From a virus, in the IMG/VR virus record IMGVR_UViG_3300048597_000133, positions 33,523-97,522 of that record: DNA of 64,000 bases; one strand, 5' to 3'. Position 1 is the stretch's first letter. Every line of letters begins with the position of its first letter. Shown one piece after another: positions 8,385 through 47,888 of this stretch. Position numbers and translations under genes: made by a program. The notes beneath the pieces are model-generated. The model made no database searches. It was not told the DNA's origin and saw only the letters and a program-made list of their open reading frames with translations.

Positions 8385-9438
8385 CAGTATTGTTATCATT
8401 GAGTTCTTTATCTCAACTTCTTATGGTTTACTATCCCATAAGCTCAGACTATATCATCTTCCTGTACATACAGGAAGGAGGGCGCTCGTGGCTGCATTAC
8501 TGTCTGTTCTAGACTCGGCAGCTAGTCGTTACACTTTCCTACTATCCCTAGTAGACTTAGCTCGGGATTATCCTTAAATACTCAGAGGACGTTCCCCGAA
8601 TTCACCCCCTTTGCTCCTAAACATTACTATTTAGGGGAGCCGGACTTACTACCTAGCAGAATATCTCTCTTTCTATGGAGAGCTGGCGCTGATAAATCAC
8701 TATACAAATAGCTTATAAACTTCCTTCTGTTATCAGATACGCCTGATACGTATGCTGCATGTACATTTTCTTTTATAAGTCTATACCAACAATTAACGCC
8801 TTGTGATTGCATATAATCAAGCGCTTGGTCTATAAAAGATTTACTGCCTGAAAATATGTAAGTTGATGTTTTATGAACTGTACCGTTCCCATCAAAGTAC
8901 CCTCGGATAAAATCCCAGGTGAAGTTAAAATTTAACTTAAGGGTAAGGCTTTTTCTCGGTGTAATACCTAAAGAGATAAGGAAGTCTACAACCATCACAT
9001 TAGAGAATCCTACGGCATATTCATATACGCCATATTTTTTATTCCAAGACCTGTTCACATTTACAGGTGCTTTTAAGAATTCAATATACTTCTCTAAGTG
9101 TTCTGGGTCTTTATTTGTACAAATACGTACGCAGCTGGCTTTGCCTTTAATGTCACTAACACAACCGTCGGATGCTATATAACCCAACCAGTACTGAGTT
9201 TCAGGATTGGTTAAATCAGCAAATGGATTATGGTGAACTTTTCGTAGTCTATCTCCTGTAGAGATTAGAGGTATGTTATTACGCAAAAGAATTCTCCTAA
9301 CGGAAGTATTGTTAGCTAAACCTGTTTCTTTAGCTATCTCTACTGTGTTTAATCCTTGTTTGTATAACGATACAACTAATTCTTCAGTTTCTTTAGAGCA
9401 ACGCTTAGGCATAATTTCTACTGTAGTTAGTGTTTTTG
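8385..9438 (-). ncRNA. group I intron 1 of the DNA polymerase gene
   Basis: The intron is 1054 nt, inserted between Ser and Gln of motif A (DYSS|QE). Joining 9439 to 8384 restores the frame. The catalytic core lies downstream of the endonuclease ORF: P element AATTCGGGGAAC near 8600, Q element AATCCCGAGC (P4 pairing TCGGG/CCCGA), R element GTAACGACTAGC near 8527, S element GATGATATAGTCTGA at 8444-8458, then a P9 hairpin (CTTATGG...CCATAAG). The exon ends in T and the intron in G as required. I could not place the internal guide for P1. Confidence 0.85.
8627..9412 (-). CDS. LAGLIDADG homing endonuclease with N-terminal HTH, in intron 1
   Basis: A 261-residue protein. Residues 1-50 form a helix-turn-helix of resolvase type (ELVVSLYKQGLNTVEIAKETG), and then come two LAGLIDADG motifs, YWLGYIASDGCVS near 77-89 and FIRGYFDGNGTVH near 164-176. 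It starts 26 nt inside the intron. By family it would cut intronless alleles at motif A and spread the intron. It is not closely similar to the enzyme in intron 2, so the two introns probably arrived separately. Confidence 0.88.
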   Translation of the reverse strand: MPKRCSKETEELVVSLYKQGLNTVEIAKETGLANNTSVRRILLRNNIPLISTGDRLRKVHHNPFADLTNPETQYWLGYIASDGCVSDIKGKASCVRICTNKDPEHLEKYIEFLKAPVNVNRSWNKKYGVYEYAVGFSNVMVVDFLISLGITPRKSLTLKLNFNFTWDFIRGYFDGNGTVHKTSTYIFSGSKSFIDQALDYMQSQGVNCWYRLIKENVHAAYVSGVSDNRRKFISYLYSDLSAPALHRKRDILLGSKSGSPK

Positions 9439-18512: not shown

Positions 18513-18839
18513 TCATTCTCGGTAGCCGTTGTAAACTTCTAGCCACAGCATCTCCCTCCACCCTTCTGGCAGCTTGTCTACGACGTGGTCTTCCTCTCTT
18601 TCTGTTTGAGAGTAATACTCTGGGGGATTGCCCTCGTCGTCGTAGTCTTGTAGTTGGAAAGGTATGTCGTAGTCTTCAATTGTGGCGCGAACTACTAAAG
18701 CAGTGTACATTGTCACCCCTATTCGCAGTAAGTCTTGAAGACTATGTAGTTCAACCATAGTGCCAGTCTTTGGTGGGTTGGTTACAGCCGGTTTGTTGCA
18801 ATGCAGGGGGTGGTTGGAGTATTTGATTAGGAATTGCAT
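18513..18839 (-). CDS. hypothetical protein
   Basis: A 108-residue acidic protein (YDDEGNPPEYYSQTEREEDH). An internal Met at residue 28 (MVELHSLQDLL) is an alternative start. It overlaps the preceding gene by 13 nt. No family recognised. Confidence 0.55.
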   Translation of the reverse strand: MQFLIKYSNHPLHCNKPAVTNPPKTGTMVELHSLQDLLRIGVTMYTALVVRATIEDYDIPFQLQDYDDEGNPPEYYSQTEREEDHVVDKLPEGWREMLWLEVYNGYRE

Positions 18840-19213
18840 TGGTCAGGGTTGAGGAATATAAGAGTAGGTATTTGGTCGTCTTCACCTCGCTTATACCCAA
18901 TAAAGTCTCCTTGATTGCCGTCTATATAGGGCATAATCCACTCAAAGAAGTCTTTGATAAAGCCGGAGTATTTGGTATCCCCTTTGCCTAATAAAGAGTA
19001 GCAATACTCATCTTTAGTGAGCAGACGGCAAGCGGTGTTAGGCGTGTAATAGCTGGCGGAGTAAAACAGGTATCTCCACGACTGCTGTTCCTCTGTTAGC
19101 GCTTCTAAGTCAGCGTCTTCATGGTCACACATAACCTTAAGGACGTTAATAACGTCTTCAGGCACGGTGTCTTTGAGGTCTACATTAATATAGATTTCTG
19201 TGTAGTAGCCCAT
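18827..19213 (-). CDS. phage protein of the MGYYTxIYxxxxLK type
   Basis: A 128-residue protein starting MGYYTEIYINVDLKD and containing YLFYSASYYTP and IDGNQGDFIGYKRGEDD. The start pattern followed by a tryptophan/aromatic core recurs in uncharacterised proteins of many phages. Function unknown. The 8 nt to the next upstream ORF indicate co-transcription. Confidence 0.6.
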   Translation of the reverse strand: MGYYTEIYINVDLKDTVPEDVINVLKVMCDHEDADLEALTEEQQSWRYLFYSASYYTPNTACRLLTKDEYCYSLLGKGDTKYSGFIKDFFEWIMPYIDGNQGDFIGYKRGEDDQIPTLIFLNPDQCNS

Positions 19214-19221
19214 TTAGTAGT

Positions 19222-19416
19222 TCAGTTAAGTATGTTTGGTGTCTTTCTCAGTACACGCGAGATAGACAAGCCTAATCGGTTAGGAATATCTTTTAGCCCG
19301 GCGATGTAGGAATAGGGATAATTCAGTCTGAGGAGAACGTTTTCTATCTCTTTATCCGCTGCCGCAGAGATAATGTGGTCTGACCTCACGCCTATCAGTT
19401 TTCTTTTTAGGATCAT
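19222..19416 (-). CDS. MLTK-type small protein (PNRLG subgroup)
   Basis: About 64 residues from MILKRKLIGVRSDH. A longer frame starting at 19455 would overlap the preceding gene, so ATG 19416 is preferred. It shares IEV/GV-KSD near the N-terminus and PNRLG near the C-terminus with the next gene, showing a tandem duplication. Confidence 0.6.
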   Translation of the reverse strand: MILKRKLIGVRSDHIISAAADKEIENVLLRLNYPYSYIAGLKDIPNRLGLSISRVLRKTPNILN

Positions 19417-43467: not shown

Positions 43468-43677
43468 CTAAGTGATAATTTCGTCTTCAGTTATACGACT
43501 ATAGCGTCCGTCAAAGAACTCTTTGTACGGGCATAACCAAACCTTGCCGTCCACCATCGACTTATAAACAACATAAGGCTCTTGATTGTCTTCTAATAGA
43601 GCCCATTCGACTAACACTATACACTCTTCGTTAGTCCTTATATGTCGATATAAGTTGTGTGTGATTGGAGTGTTCAT
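43468..43677 (-). CDS. conserved phage-type protein (DUF1653-like)
   Basis: A 69-residue protein, MNTPITHNLYRHIRTNEECIV, with a WALLEDNQEPYVVYKSM segment and WLCPYKEFFDG..  This resembles the DUF1653 pattern (Y.H.K....Y.V...A.....E..VVY......G..WvRP...F). Function unknown. Overlaps the upstream GIY-YIG-like gene by 47 nt. Confidence 0.6.
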   Translation of the reverse strand: MNTPITHNLYRHIRTNEECIVLVEWALLEDNQEPYVVYKSMVDGKVWLCPYKEFFDGRYSRITEDEIIT

Positions 43678-43948
43678 TGACTAGATAAGGCTGCAGCCAC
43701 GTTTCTAATACTTCTAAGTGAGCGTCGGTCAAGTCAAACCATTCACCGTTAAATCTTAGCCGACGCTGCCAAAACATCTTATGGATTTGTTGCTCTAGCT
43801 TGCGGGCGATTTTATCTGGTACTGAGTAGGACTTGACTAAGACCAGTTTACCGGCGGCACCGGTTTGTAATTGTCTTAGACGCCGCCGAGGGTCCTTGCT
43901 AACCCCTACCTTATATTTAGATTTGTTTTGGATAACGTAGAGGTACAT
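43631..43948 (-). CDS. GIY-YIG-like nuclease domain protein (T5orf172/MUG113 type)
   Basis: Starts MYLYVIQNKSKYKVGVSKDPRRRLRQLQTG; the Y-V-I...Y-K-V-G pair is the GIY-YIG counterpart, with an Arg-rich helix, and EQQIHKMFWQRRLRFNGEWFDL with a conserved Glu-Trp-Phe. Small single-domain members of this type occur in phages as nicking nuclease-like proteins. ATG 43948 fits the domain; ATG 43969 would overlap the upstream gene by 7 nt. Confidence 0.7.
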   Translation of the reverse strand: MYLYVIQNKSKYKVGVSKDPRRRLRQLQTGAAGKLVLVKSYSVPDKIARKLEQQIHKMFWQRRLRFNGEWFDLTDAHLEVLETWLQPYLVNEHSNHTQLISTYKD

Positions 43949-43962
43949 GGGGAGGGGCGGGT

Positions 43963-44805
43963 TTAGCAAGAGCCTACTTGCTCTACTACGACTGGCACTA
44001 CGTTATTCATAGCTTCTGCTTTATCAGCAAATAACATACTGACGTAATGAGACATAGTAGCCGGGCTATAGGGTAAACGGATAGCGTTGCCGGAGGCGCT
44101 GGCGCAATTAGTGTTAAAGGAAACCACTGCCGTTTCAGCCCGGTCCCTTACGAAAACTTCTTCACTGAGCTTAGAAAGTTGAGTCAGTTGAGATACTGAC
44201 CAACTACTATTAGTTTGAGTGACGATGTGTTCAGGTTGGACTAGGACTTCAAAGACAGAGCCGGCGTCAGGACAAGTATTCATAACCCAGTTGAATTCTC
44301 CGACGGTTTGGTTACGTTCACCGCTGATTACATTGCCTGAAGTAAACGTAGAGCTATTAGACCAGTTAGTCGTAATATCCTGGCTAATCCAACTAGCTCG
44401 CTGGTATAGAACTACATCTCCATCTAAAGTAAGCGGTGCATCTACAGTACCTACCCGGGCGATGAATTGAATATTACGTTCTTCACTAAAGAAGGAATCA
44501 GACAGACGACTGACAAACTTTTCAAATGGGGCGGTAGGCATACCGCTGTTAGTCAGGGAATCTAATCGTTCTTTAATACCAAAAATGTCTTTACCTGCTT
44601 TGACTGAATTTAGGTAGTAATTTTTAGGATTAAAGTGTTGTTCTAGTACTTCGATGTTGCCGCTGGTTACTAAGGAATCTCGGAGGATGTCATAGGTTAG
44701 CCGTTGAGTTTGTCGGTTTACAAAGCGAACGGACCGGTCTGATGGACGGTAGAAAGAGATGGCGTCGTCGGTGACTAAATACTTGATTGGTGTTTGAGTT
44801 GCCAT
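43963..44805 (-). CDS. rIIB: RIIB-like protein
   Basis: A 280-residue protein. Order of segments follows T4-type RIIB proteins: an N-terminal region with DDAISFYR.., a middle PFEKFVSRLSDSFFSEERNIQFI, APLTLDGDVVLYQRASW and then VMNTCPDAGSVFEVLVQP, the 'C..G.HV' region. RIIA is present elsewhere in this genome (9.8-12.3 kb), which makes the pairing plausible. Assignment by pattern only. Confidence 0.55.
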   Translation of the reverse strand: MATQTPIKYLVTDDAISFYRPSDRSVRFVNRQTQRLTYDILRDSLVTSGNIEVLEQHFNPKNYYLNSVKAGKDIFGIKERLDSLTNSGMPTAPFEKFVSRLSDSFFSEERNIQFIARVGTVDAPLTLDGDVVLYQRASWISQDITTNWSNSSTFTSGNVISGERNQTVGEFNWVMNTCPDAGSVFEVLVQPEHIVTQTNSSWSVSQLTQLSKLSEEVFVRDRAETAVVSFNTNCASASGNAIRLPYSPATMSHYVSMLFADKAEAMNNVVPVVVEQVGSC

Positions 44806-44855: not shown

Positions 44856-45530
44856 CTAGCTGGGTGCGTGCTTCTTCCTGAGCTTATAGATAAAACTATC
44901 AGAAACGCCCCATAATGCCATTAGTTCCTTAGTAGAGTGGGTAAATAAGAGCTCTGGGTCGTAGCTTATTTTGTAGCCTGGGATTTGCAGTTTAGTCCTA
45001 CGCTTATAGACCACGTGCAGCCTGACGTTTAATTGTTTAGCCAGTTGAGGGTCGGGCATAGTACCTAGTAAAGAGTCCAACTCAGGAGTCCAGTTAAGAG
45101 TCGGATTCCACCTTGTGCATTTAACAAAAGGCGGGATGCCAAGTTCTCGACGCCGACGCGTAACCATACTTTTAATCAACCCAAGTTTGTCGGCTACTTG
45201 TTGGTCAGACATAGTACCTAAGAGAGCCACCTGGTCTTTAGTGAGCGTGACTTTCCGCTTGTACGACCTTTTTGCTTCTCCTATACCGAGCTCCTTACGA
45301 GCTTTTTTAAGGTAGTACTCGGAGATGTTATAGGTTTTAGACAAAGTGGAGTCTGGTATTTTACCCAAAGAGTCGAGACATTCTTTAGGTATATCCTTGA
45401 CCTTACAGTAAGGTGGGATGCCATATTGAGCTCGAAGTCGAAATACTGTGGCTTGTGAAATGTTGTAGTCTTTAGCTAACTGGCGGTCTGACTTAGTACC
45501 CAGTAATTCTTTAGGCGGGAGTCTCATCAT
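44856..45530 (-). CDS. tandem helix-turn-helix repeat protein
   Basis: A 224-residue protein consisting of about five repeats of a 45-50 residue unit. Each reads LLGTxSDxQLAxxYNIS...VxxxRxxxGIPPY and includes a helix-turn-helix. Repeat starts lie near residues 6, 51, 101, 149 and 192. Repeat 1 is ELLGTKSDRQLAKDYNIS, repeat 3 LLGTMSDQQVADKLGL. Such tandem HTHs resemble phage DNA-binding proteins and intron-associated repeats. It should bind long DNA sites. Confidence 0.75.
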   Translation of the reverse strand: MMRLPPKELLGTKSDRQLAKDYNISQATVFRLRAQYGIPPYCKVKDIPKECLDSLGKIPDSTLSKTYNISEYYLKKARKELGIGEAKRSYKRKVTLTKDQVALLGTMSDQQVADKLGLIKSMVTRRRRELGIPPFVKCTRWNPTLNWTPELDSLLGTMPDPQLAKQLNVRLHVVYKRRTKLQIPGYKISYDPELLFTHSTKELMALWGVSDSFIYKLRKKHAPS

Positions 45531-45532
45531 AA

Positions 45533-46129
45533 TTAGCCTGCAGATTCTAAGATGGCACGTTCTGTTTTTAAGTCACGGTTAATGGCTCGACTAGCCTCAA
45601 ACTTATCTGGGAAGCGTGCGTTTAGCTTAAGTAGATTCTTGCGGAGAATAGGATTAAGTGTCTTCACGTAGCATTTATTAAAAGCTATGTGCATATACCA
45701 AAGTAGGTCCCCTAATTCTTCTCTCACGTTAACTTCATCTAGAGGAGCGCTGTCGTATAAAGCGGTGTATAGTGCTTCTACAAGCTCTACTGATTCAGTG
45801 GCTATACCAAGGATACAGTGAATGATTTCAGGTGACACGTGGTCCGGCCATTGACCATGAACTGGCGGCTCACTTTTATCTTTAGATTCCCAGTAAGCTG
45901 CATGGAGAATTCGGTTAACTTCGGCGGTGTCTTTACCGTAGAAGAGAGCCTTTTTGACTTTATCTAGGATATTCCCTGCAGAGATAAAATCTGATAGGGC
46001 TTTAATGACTAGGTGATAGTCAAGGTCATCGGCGTAGAATTCATGGGAGAGGGTTACTTGTGCGCCGGCGCAATACTCAGCCCAAGTAAGGTCTTCACCG
46101 GCTTTGCATTTCTCGATAATTGGATTCAT
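45533..46129 (-). CDS. MazG-like nucleotide pyrophosphohydrolase
   Basis: A 198-residue protein with HCILGIATESVELVEALY then NVREELGDLLWYMHIA; the E..VE and EELGDLLWY pairs are the metal-binding signature of the MazG/all-alpha NTP pyrophosphohydrolase superfamily. Typical for phages that adjust nucleotide pools or ppGpp. The N-terminal 45 residues include TLSHEFYADD. Overlaps the upstream stop as ATGA. Confidence 0.72.
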   Translation of the reverse strand: MNPIIEKCKAGEDLTWAEYCAGAQVTLSHEFYADDLDYHLVIKALSDFISAGNILDKVKKALFYGKDTAEVNRILHAAYWESKDKSEPPVHGQWPDHVSPEIIHCILGIATESVELVEALYTALYDSAPLDEVNVREELGDLLWYMHIAFNKCYVKTLNPILRKNLLKLNARFPDKFEASRAINRDLKTERAILESAG

Positions 46130-46596
46130 GAGTGTCCTGCTGGTGGGTAAATAAAGAAGAGTTCGGTGTGTAATCCTACTAGCTTTGGTTTCAAGTTTAG
46201 GTCTTCTAAGACACTAAGCGCCGTCCGAGCTTCGTTAAACTCAAACGTTTTAGCTTTGTTGGAGTCACATAGGACTATTTGTCCGTTTAGCTCTTTAACA
46301 TAGCAGTTACCGACTTTAATCTCAAACCTAGATATTGCTTTAACTATAGATGTGGTACCAGTTATGTTAGCCACGTGTTTAGCAACGTATTGGGCCTCAG
46401 TAAAGTTTGAGAAGGGGCAGTTATAGATATTGTTCTCCAACAGGCACATATTATTTTTGCTGTACGCTTCATAGTCTTCAGGGCTGCTGCCTTTAGGCAA
46501 TAAGGAGACAAAGAAGGTGTTGAGTTTATTTTGGGCCTCTTCTGGGACTGATAGAGGTTCAGTGTTGAGGGAGCGTAGTAGTTGTTCGTCGTTCAT
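46126..46596 (-). CDS. hypothetical protein
   Basis: A 156-residue protein, MNDEQLLRSLNTEPLSV start. Alpha/beta, no family recognised. It lies directly downstream of the HNH gene (22 nt). Confidence 0.55.
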   Translation of the reverse strand: MNDEQLLRSLNTEPLSVPEEAQNKLNTFFVSLLPKGSSPEDYEAYSKNNMCLLENNIYNCPFSNFTEAQYVAKHVANITGTTSIVKAISRFEIKVGNCYVKELNGQIVLCDSNKAKTFEFNEARTALSVLEDLNLKPKLVGLHTELFFIYPPAGHS

Positions 46597-46618: not shown

Positions 46619-47290
46619 TTAAGTTATGTACTGAGAGGCAACATCAAATTTCCAATAATGGAAAATTTCTTTACCTAGCTTAGACGGTAACGTCAGCAGA
46701 AAGTTAATGACGGGCGGGATGTTTTTAATATTGAAGCCTTTAGCTTGGAGGGTGCGAACTACAGTTAACCTAATCAGCTTAGCTGTGTCTGATGCACCAC
46801 CACCAAAGCGAGCCCAGGATTTAACGTCAGCCCGTTTAACCTTGCCCGGATACATTTGGTTAAGAGCGTTAGCACAGAGGCTATTTTGCTGGGGCGTGAC
46901 GTAGACCAGGTTTTTCCTGTCATTGTTTTGGCGGTTACTATCTAAATGATGTACCTCCATCTTGCCGCAGACAGCACGGTATTTAGACTTTGGCGAGTCT
47001 TTAAAGCGTAGGATATACATTCCAGCGTGTAGATACAAAACTATCTGATGTACGCCAGCTAGATAACCATGGTTAGTGGGGTGAAAGACGAAGAAGCCCA
47101 CGTCCTCTAAGATTTGCTTTAGTTCAACATTGTCTTCAAAATCAACTACTATGTAGCCATTTTTGTTAGTGAATGTTTCAGCTTGTTCTAAAAGAGAAAG
47201 AGCCCCGACAGCTAACTGACGGAGCTCTTTTCTACGTAACTTGTAGAAGTCTGGTCTCATAGATATTATTGTCGTGTAGTGTGTACACAT
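46619..47290 (-). CDS. HNH homing endonuclease
   Basis: A 223-residue protein with MEVHHLDSNRQNNDRKNLVYVTPQQN near residue 125, the HNH signature (His-His ... Asn ... Asn-Leu) of intron-type HNH enzymes, preceded by VHQIVLYLHAG. The starts at 47290 and 47260 are both possible; the former falls within a 13-bp inverted repeat. Upstream lies a structured RNA like a group I intron. It lacks a RuvC domain, so it is not IscB. Confidence 0.78.
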   Translation of the reverse strand: MCTHYTTIISMRPDFYKLRRKELRQLAVGALSLLEQAETFTNKNGYIVVDFEDNVELKQILEDVGFFVFHPTNHGYLAGVHQIVLYLHAGMYILRFKDSPKSKYRAVCGKMEVHHLDSNRQNNDRKNLVYVTPQQNSLCANALNQMYPGKVKRADVKSWARFGGGASDTAKLIRLTVVRTLQAKGFNIKNIPPVINFLLTLPSKLGKEIFHYWKFDVASQYIT

Positions 47291-47356
47291 AAAGTTAATC
47301 TAGACAGCGTGTCTCTAGTGTTCACCTGCTCTCTGTCTGTAAAATTAACTTTATGT
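47287..47356. repeat. 13-bp perfect inverted repeat
   Basis: ACATAAAGTTAAT at 47287-47299 and its exact complement at 47344-47356, with an inner AGACAG/CTGTCT pair. It joins the structured RNA with the HNH start. Could be the intron's 3' end or the endonuclease leader. Confidence 0.6.
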
Positions 47357-47640
47357 CTAGTGTCAGTGCGTGTGAGCTAAAGAGGCTCACCTACCGACTA
47401 TCCTCTCTAGAGGCCCTGGAGTTCCTGATATTGGCTCCTTATTGGAGTCGTTAAGCTAAGGATTTATCGCTTTACCTCAGCGCAGGCCAGGGTCAGGAGC
47501 ACTTATATATCCCCCGTTAAATCCTTCCACTCGATGGCGACAAGTTTCTGGTGGGATGACACCTCTGTTCAGTCAGAGAACCTACTACGAGGCTGGTGCC
47601 TTGTTTTGCATGGAATATATAAATTTTAGCTTAAAGAAAA
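47357..47640 (-). ncRNA. putative group I intron core, apparently not inside a gene
   Basis: The minus-strand RNA contains the hallmark P7 pairing: R-like CTTAACGACTCC (CGACT at 47446-47450) and S-like GAGGATAGTCGG (AGTCG at 47395-47399). Before R lies a perfect 8-bp pairing AAGGATTT/AAATCCTT (47519-47526 with 47458-47465). A hairpin CCTCT..AGAGG fits P8 and GTGAGC..GCTCAC fits P9. The gap of more than 300 bases holds no ORF. No flanking gene is interrupted, and no exon can be shown. Confidence 0.5.
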
Positions 47641-47693
47641 TCAGGATGTCTACCTTAAAACTAAGCTATAAGTGTAGTGTTTGAGTTTGAACT

Positions 47694-47888
47694 ATGAAGC
47701 GTTTAGCATTCTTTTACGTGTTGGCTGACGTCCTTATTATCTTGCTGGCTTTGTACATCTATAAGGACGATGTAGAGCATTGGGCTGACTATTTGTTTTG
47801 TTATACCATTGGCATGATGTTGAGTGGCACCTTCTACAACCTAAAGATGCGGCATGTTAAAGGCGAGTTAGAAGCTGCCGACTCTTAG
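47694..47888 (+). CDS. small membrane protein
   Basis: A 64-residue protein with two membrane segments (LAFFYVLADVLIILLALYIY, residues 3-22, and YLFCYTIGMMLSGTFY near 35-50) and a charged tail. Plus strand, opposite to its neighbours. No family recognised. Possible anti-host or superinfection-exclusion role is only speculation. Confidence 0.6.
   Translation: MKRLAFFYVLADVLIILLALYIYKDDVEHWADYLFCYTIGMMLSGTFYNLKMRHVKGELEAADS

Follow-up and report, generated by a model that had tools for sequence, protein, structure and literature searches.

Genes at the locus

The window, a 64,000-nucleotide stretch of a 97.5-kb IMG/VR virus record, carries on its minus strand an HNH endonuclease ORF that is preceded by a noncoding stretch of about 330 nt, beyond which lies an oppositely directed gene (47694-47888, +), and that is followed on its 3′ side by a gene designated gene X and then by a MazG-like gene (Table 1). 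A search with gene X led to a related phage, represented by a 205-kb IMG/VR contig (IMGVR_UViG_3300048597_000634, termed L002), in which the same unit of sigma70-like promoter, noncoding RNA (about 330 nt in the window and 410 nt in L002) and HNH gene is present. The MazG-like genes of the two phages (6501-7115 in L002) are 77% identical. An earlier sequence-only reading of the window had placed the unit outside any recognizable gene and next to an upstream neighbor that runs the other way, and the intergenic position holds in both phages, as does the divergent orientation of the neighbor in the window. A tRNA search and Rfam revealed no tRNA, tmRNA or rRNA gene at the locus.

The ORF had been recognized as an HNH gene, and its product contains a homing-type HNH nuclease domain, as seen in its match to Pfam PF13392 (HNH_3; 35.3 bits, 8.7e-9), its HH..N...N motif and a PADLOC match to homing endonucleases (9e-4). 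It also matches phrog_28475 (8.4e-17), relatives of which are found in Microcystis phages (33–39% identity; Ma-LMM01, MaMV-DC and others) and in a Microcoleus phage (27%). HNH_3 was the sole domain matched, with no RuvC match in the protein. The start codon common to L002 is the ATG at 47260, which gives a protein of 213 aa (full range 213–223 aa), and the predicted structure is poor (pLDDT 46). The phage also has a paralogue of the gene (G000 18820-19233), which comes after its preceding gene with no leader between them.

Table 1. Positions of the promoter, RNA elements and genes, in window coordinates.
Feature	Position	Strand	Details
Sigma70-like promoter of the unit	47623..47652	−	−35 TAGACA (47652-47647), 18 bp, −10 TAAAAT (47628-47623)
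RNA 5′ domain	47503..47616	−	Hairpins GGTG/CACC (47563-47550) and ACTTG/CGAGT (47545-47529); 61% identical to L002
Conserved RNA core (model R1)	47360..47502	−	Three-way junction, then P8 and two-part P9
Core P3	47492-47483 with 47427-47424 and 47419-47414	−	Part of three-way junction
Core P4	47481-47475/47461-47455	−	Part of three-way junction
Core short hairpin	47449-47433	−	Part of three-way junction
P8 hairpin	47413-47402	−	Core
Two-part P9	47398-47362	−	Core
Terminal long stem	47287..47356	−	ACATAAAGTTAAT/ATTAACTTTATGT; directly before ORF
HNH_3-type endonuclease ORF	46619..47290	−	Pfam PF13392, phrog_28475, PADLOC
Gene X (flanking gene)	46126..46596	−	63% identical to L002 4918-5388
MazG-like gene	45533..46129	−	phrog_229, 1.4e-33

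Promoter and architecture of the leader RNA

The promoter agrees with the consensus at 10 of 12 positions, and no other site in the region looks as much like a promoter; the same holds for its counterpart in L002 (5418-5447), which aligns with it and has identical hexamers and spacing. Homology between the two copies of the unit starts at the −35 element, and the RNA would begin at about 47616, some 7 nt past the promoter, at the conserved ATTCCAYGCAAAACAAGG. The unit probably has its own transcription start, because the upstream gene is divergent in the window while in L002 a hairpin after the stop codon of gene X lies between the cassette and the upstream gene. The promoter directly in front of the RNA, together with this hairpin in L002, leaves no space for a 5′ exon.

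The second hairpin of the 5′ domain (ACTTG/CGAGT) becomes ACTTC/GGAGT in L002. In the core, the closing stem of the three-way junction is 10 bp long and has a 4-nt bulge, the loop of P4 (UAAAGCGAUAAA) is invariant between the two phages, and the minimum-energy shape is identical in both. The P8- and P9-like hairpins noted previously (47413-47402 and 47390-47372) are kept in L002 with compensatory changes. The same is true of the long stem, which contains the 13-bp inverted repeat (47356-47344/47299-47287) that had been pointed out before the ORF: in L002 this stem has another sequence that is still complementary (CACAGCCAACAGTTA/TAACTGTTAGCTGTG). It encloses a hairpin (AGACAG/CTGTCT, or AGGCAG/CTGCCT in L002) with the conserved loop GAGAG.AGGTGA...GACACG. 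No obvious ribosome-binding site was seen before the HNH ORF, and none masked by the long stem.

The folding energy of the window RNA is lower than that of all 100 shuffles (z −2.87). Within 360 nt there are 88 perfect 5-bp pairings where 62 are expected from mononucleotide shuffles, seven perfect 9-mer pairings vs. 0.26 (these counts overlap, since longer repeats hold several 9-mers) and one perfect 13-mer pairing vs. 0.002. The 13-bp repeat, like the degree of folding overall, therefore exceeds chance, while the pair proposed as P7 of a group I intron, taken alone, does not.

Conservation of the RNA

The comparative evidence comes from two sequences, those of the window and L002. Their RNAs can be aligned with 72% identity over 312 nt, and identity amounts to 78% in the core (107/137) and 68% for the whole RNA, as against 41% (151/365) at fourfold-degenerate sites of six shared genes and 49% at those of the HNH gene alone (core vs. 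all fourfold sites, P = 9e-14; core vs. HNH fourfold sites, P = 6e-5). The RNA is thus under purifying selection, which maintains it nearly as strongly as the protein genes. With alignment A7, the window forms 38 of the 39 core pairs and L002 forms 37, and seven pairs show double compensatory changes, a number reached by 5 of 500 shuffles while slid controls give zero or one. None of 20,000 trials of a null that scatters the changes reaches the compensatory signal, but a stricter null that keeps the changed columns and draws new bases at random yields P 0.07–0.08, and when all covarying helices are counted without bias, significance is found only for those of at least 5 bp (P 0.017). Support from covariation is hence modest with two sequences. 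The core is more conserved than the ORF-adjacent stem, which one would not usually see with a hairpin that simply blocks translation. This pattern suggests that the core may do more than block a ribosome site, such as bind a ligand or protein, set timing or act in partnership with the HNH protein.

Mobility of the unit

The order of genes in the window is reverse gene, RNA plus HNH, gene X and MazG, and in L002 it is reverse gene, gene X, RNA plus HNH and MazG, so that the unit is upstream of gene X in one phage and downstream in the other. Gene X and the MazG-like gene overlap by ATGA in the window while the cassette separates them in L002, and the L002 insertion site is thus empty in the window. 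Conversely, the site used in the window is empty in L002, because the stretch before gene X there (CACTTACAGCTTA-ACTCTATG) is unbroken. The right end of the cassette is near the HNH stop codon in both copies, and the HNH proteins have 74% amino acid identity. Since the unit has a different intergenic place in L002, it behaves as a mobile intergenic cassette and not as an intron, and its HNH gene has the location of a free-standing homing endonuclease gene movable between related phages (those of the window and L002). The cassette is likelier than gene X to be the mover in this comparison, which contains no outgroup; one with gene X was sought and none was found.

No third copy of the RNA was found in several types of search. 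Pattern scans of IMG/VR with three RNA segments gave the L002 contig and chance matches only, in profile scans with the HNH protein nothing closer than the L002 copy came up, and neither the genome contigs searched nor blastn against phages, plasmids and E. coli genomes yielded a further homologue. The matches of model R1, run on the fetched loci and on whole related phage records, were the two known copies only.

Comparison with group I introns

HNH genes occur with group I introns (RF00028), an example being the I-PfoP3I intron of cyanophage Pf-WMP3, and the sequence-only reading had offered a free-standing group I-type ribozyme, an intron in an unseen RNA gene or a different HNH-associated RNA. 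The Rfam group I search that it proposed was run and gave no match at the locus, either at the gathering score or at E ≤ 10 with relaxed filters on stretches of 1601 and 391 bases, and there was none in L002 at E ≤ 1. No Rfam family of any kind matched at the locus. As a positive control, the library finds a group I intron elsewhere in the window (8420-8672, −; 59.4 bits), 39 kb away.

The sequences read as the two strands of P7 are present, namely AACGACT with CGACT at 47450-47446 and GATAGTCGG with AGTCG at 47399-47395 (both −). Their pairing is kept in both copies, but a pair of 5 bp is within chance and this one competes with two local helices, the junction hairpin and the outer P9, with which it cannot coexist. 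One position of the AGUCG strand changes from U to C in L002, and this one change is compensated in two places simultaneously, which makes a switch between two folds possible. The distant pairing described as 8 bp, which we take to be a perfect 9-bp pairing (AAGGATTTA, 47526-47518, with TAAATCCTT, 47466-47458), exists in the window but is lost in L002, and was rejected as P4 for this reason. The idea of an intron whose host is an unseen tRNA or rRNA gene was rejected in the absence of any tRNA, rRNA or tmRNA match; the unit also has its own promoter and two different intergenic places, with no exons. Nor does the unit resemble a group I intron with exons and a P1 splice-site pairing, as it is intergenic with different junctions in the two phages and a promoter before the RNA. 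It is the third option, a different HNH-associated RNA, that the evidence favors.

Interpretation

The promoter, the RNA and the ORF are found as one unit in two different locations, and the RNA keeps its pairings. On balance we lean, if only slightly, towards a free-standing HNH homing endonuclease cassette whose large leader RNA controls expression in cis. Such a cassette would comprise its own promoter, a structured leader RNA and an HNH_3-type homing endonuclease gene. Transcription would begin at the 5′ end of the leader, which is predicted to fold into a domain with a three-way junction, followed by a long stem that ends where the ORF starts, and the fold most probably acts in cis to set the timing or strength of translation of HNH and the downstream genes. 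In a co-infecting phage whose site is empty, the endonuclease would nick or cut that site, and recombination would then copy the whole cassette. Homing activity is presumed here, and the fact that both copies flank gene X is as expected if the target were in or near gene X. The RNA is probably a new family that is tied to a mobile HNH gene.

It is rather unlikely that the RNA is instead a divergent group I-type ribozyme, whether free-standing or similar to GIR1, that acts on the HNH message by cleavage or capping and has CGACU/AGUCG as P7, CCCUGG/CCAGGG as P3, and the P8 and P9 of the sequence-only reading. The P3-, P4-, P7- and P8-like pairings are kept in the two sequences, their order (P3-P4-P7-P3′-P8-P7′) resembles that of group I, and P7 becomes CGGUU/AGCCG in L002 with five of five pairs kept and one double change. 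However, P6, P1, exons and splice sites are missing from a unit that begins at a promoter, and no group I model matches either homologue (E 10 for the window, E 1 for L002) even though the library detects a true intron in the window. Group I introns have almost no nucleotides between the 5′ strand of P7 and the 3′ strand of P3, while here there are 26. In addition, both P7 strands are within conserved local helices that compete with P7, and of these the outer P9 keeps six of six pairs with a compensatory change. An RNA that serves as trans-acting partner of the HNH protein, directing or licensing DNA cutting in the manner of HEARO/OMEGA RNA with IsrB, is improbable too. The RNA and HNH gene did remain together through the move, the core is about as conserved as the protein gene, and IsrB works with a HEARO RNA that is about as long (343 nt; PMC12286853). 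Against this, neither HEARO nor any other Rfam family matches, the protein has HNH_3 without a RuvC match, and the HNH paralogue has no leader. Moreover, no stretch of either RNA is complementary to the empty or occupied insertion sites beyond what shuffles give, and the RNA was rejected as a guide on these grounds. More broadly, we regard as unlikely that the RNA is a working HNH partner or a new self-cleaving ribozyme, which would make the unit a small RNA-plus-HNH mobile element unlike both HEARO/OMEGA and group I introns.

There is a small chance that the conserved stretch matters as DNA, in the form of an operator, a homing recognition site or palindromic cassette ends. Inverted repeats are present, and homing endonucleases, I-TevI among them, repress their own promoters by binding to operators (PMC2988022), but the conservation covers about 300 nt and is patterned as compensatory changes, and where an operator would keep its sequence, the ORF-adjacent stem has changed its sequence and stayed complementary. 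We think it just as improbable that the leader belongs to the neighboring operon, regulating gene X or MazG, with the HNH gene inserted behind it as a passenger. Since the unit precedes gene X in the window and MazG in L002, it could drive both, yet in L002 gene X precedes the leader, and it is the HNH gene, not a fixed neighbor, that stays behind the leader.

A cis-acting leader has precedents among phage homing endonucleases: for I-TevI, I-TevII, I-TevIII, SegB and Aeh1 MobE, translation is controlled by RNA structures where the gene begins, and these are local hairpins at the ribosome-binding site that delay translation (PMC2988022). The unit resembles SegB of T4, MobE of Aeh1 and seg43 of Aeromonas phage 25 in being an intergenic phage endonuclease gene, and resembles these and I-TevI, I-TevII and I-TevIII in having an RNA structure directly at the gene start, with a promoter of its own as in some of them (PMC2988022). 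It differs from their local hairpins in that a conserved multi-domain RNA of about 330 nt travels with the gene. With the HNH-containing group I introns it shares an HNH gene adjoining a structured RNA and P7-like and P8/P9-like pairings, but not a model match, exons, P6 or P1, and, unlike them, it has its own promoter and two intergenic places. Like HEARO/OMEGA RNA with IsrB, an RNA of about 300 nt is beside a nuclease gene and moves with it as a unit, but without the Rfam match, the RuvC match or a guide-like match to the insertion sites.

The usual picture of a phage homing endonuclease is that of a bare gene, or of a passenger carried by an intron or intein. If the proposal is correct, homing genes can evolve an elaborate RNA regulator of their own, or an RNA that works as their partner, and model R1 provides a concrete RNA for metagenome searches and in vitro work.

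Leaders of related HNH genes and other nearby elements

Homologous HNH genes of phrog_28475 (33–39% identity) also stand behind noncoding leaders in Ma-LMM01 (gp51) and MaMV-DC (ORF52R), but their leader sequences are unrelated to the window RNA and form an array of long hairpins. None of the relatives' leaders resembles the window RNA by sequence or by model R1, and the similarity is therefore one of parallel and not of homology. The Microcystis-phage stretch starts at a TTGACA/TATAAT promoter, and the one copy that was folded (L034) gave z −6.6, compared with −2.3 for the Microcoleus phage and −0.3 for L042. A motif common to the window and the Microcoleus phage leader (GGGCCCC..AGGGGATA) was rejected, being 18 nt long with E 0.3–0.5. 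About 600–700 noncoding nt precede the Microcystis-phage HNH gene in L034 (1000-1628), L013, L015, L029, L030, L036, L037 and L044, and consist of hairpin modules that have CCCGGCCTCCGATGGAGGGGGG in common and stems that vary between phages. In L042 (2400-2930) and L043 there are two tandem near-identical hairpins (CATCTGTTAAATGGTAGCATTTTGTGTCAAAGGCAAYAGRTG) before the HNH homologue. Ma-LMM01 has three CRISPR-DR5-like repeats upstream of gp51 (L014, 2611-2790), with a score of 31.4 bits that falls short of the curated cut-off. Judged by eye, one "spacer" is a reverse-complement match, with one mismatch, to the HNH-locus leader of MaMV-DC-type phages, and another resembles a second part of that leader. 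The arrangement looks like a phage-borne mini-array that may be aimed at the same locus of related phages.

The group I intron that served as control lies within an apparent family A DNA polymerase gene and is preceded by an ORF (8627-9412, −) that by eye resembles a LAGLIDADG endonuclease. The window also encodes an HTH-repeat protein (44856-45530, −; phrog_59) that is like the DNA-binding part of HNH homing endonucleases and is without a nuclease domain; in L002, MazG and the gene after it have no such gene between them, which points to another insertion. Near the HNH cassette is a small protein of the GIY-YIG/T5orf172 type (43631-43969, −), and L002 has one as well.
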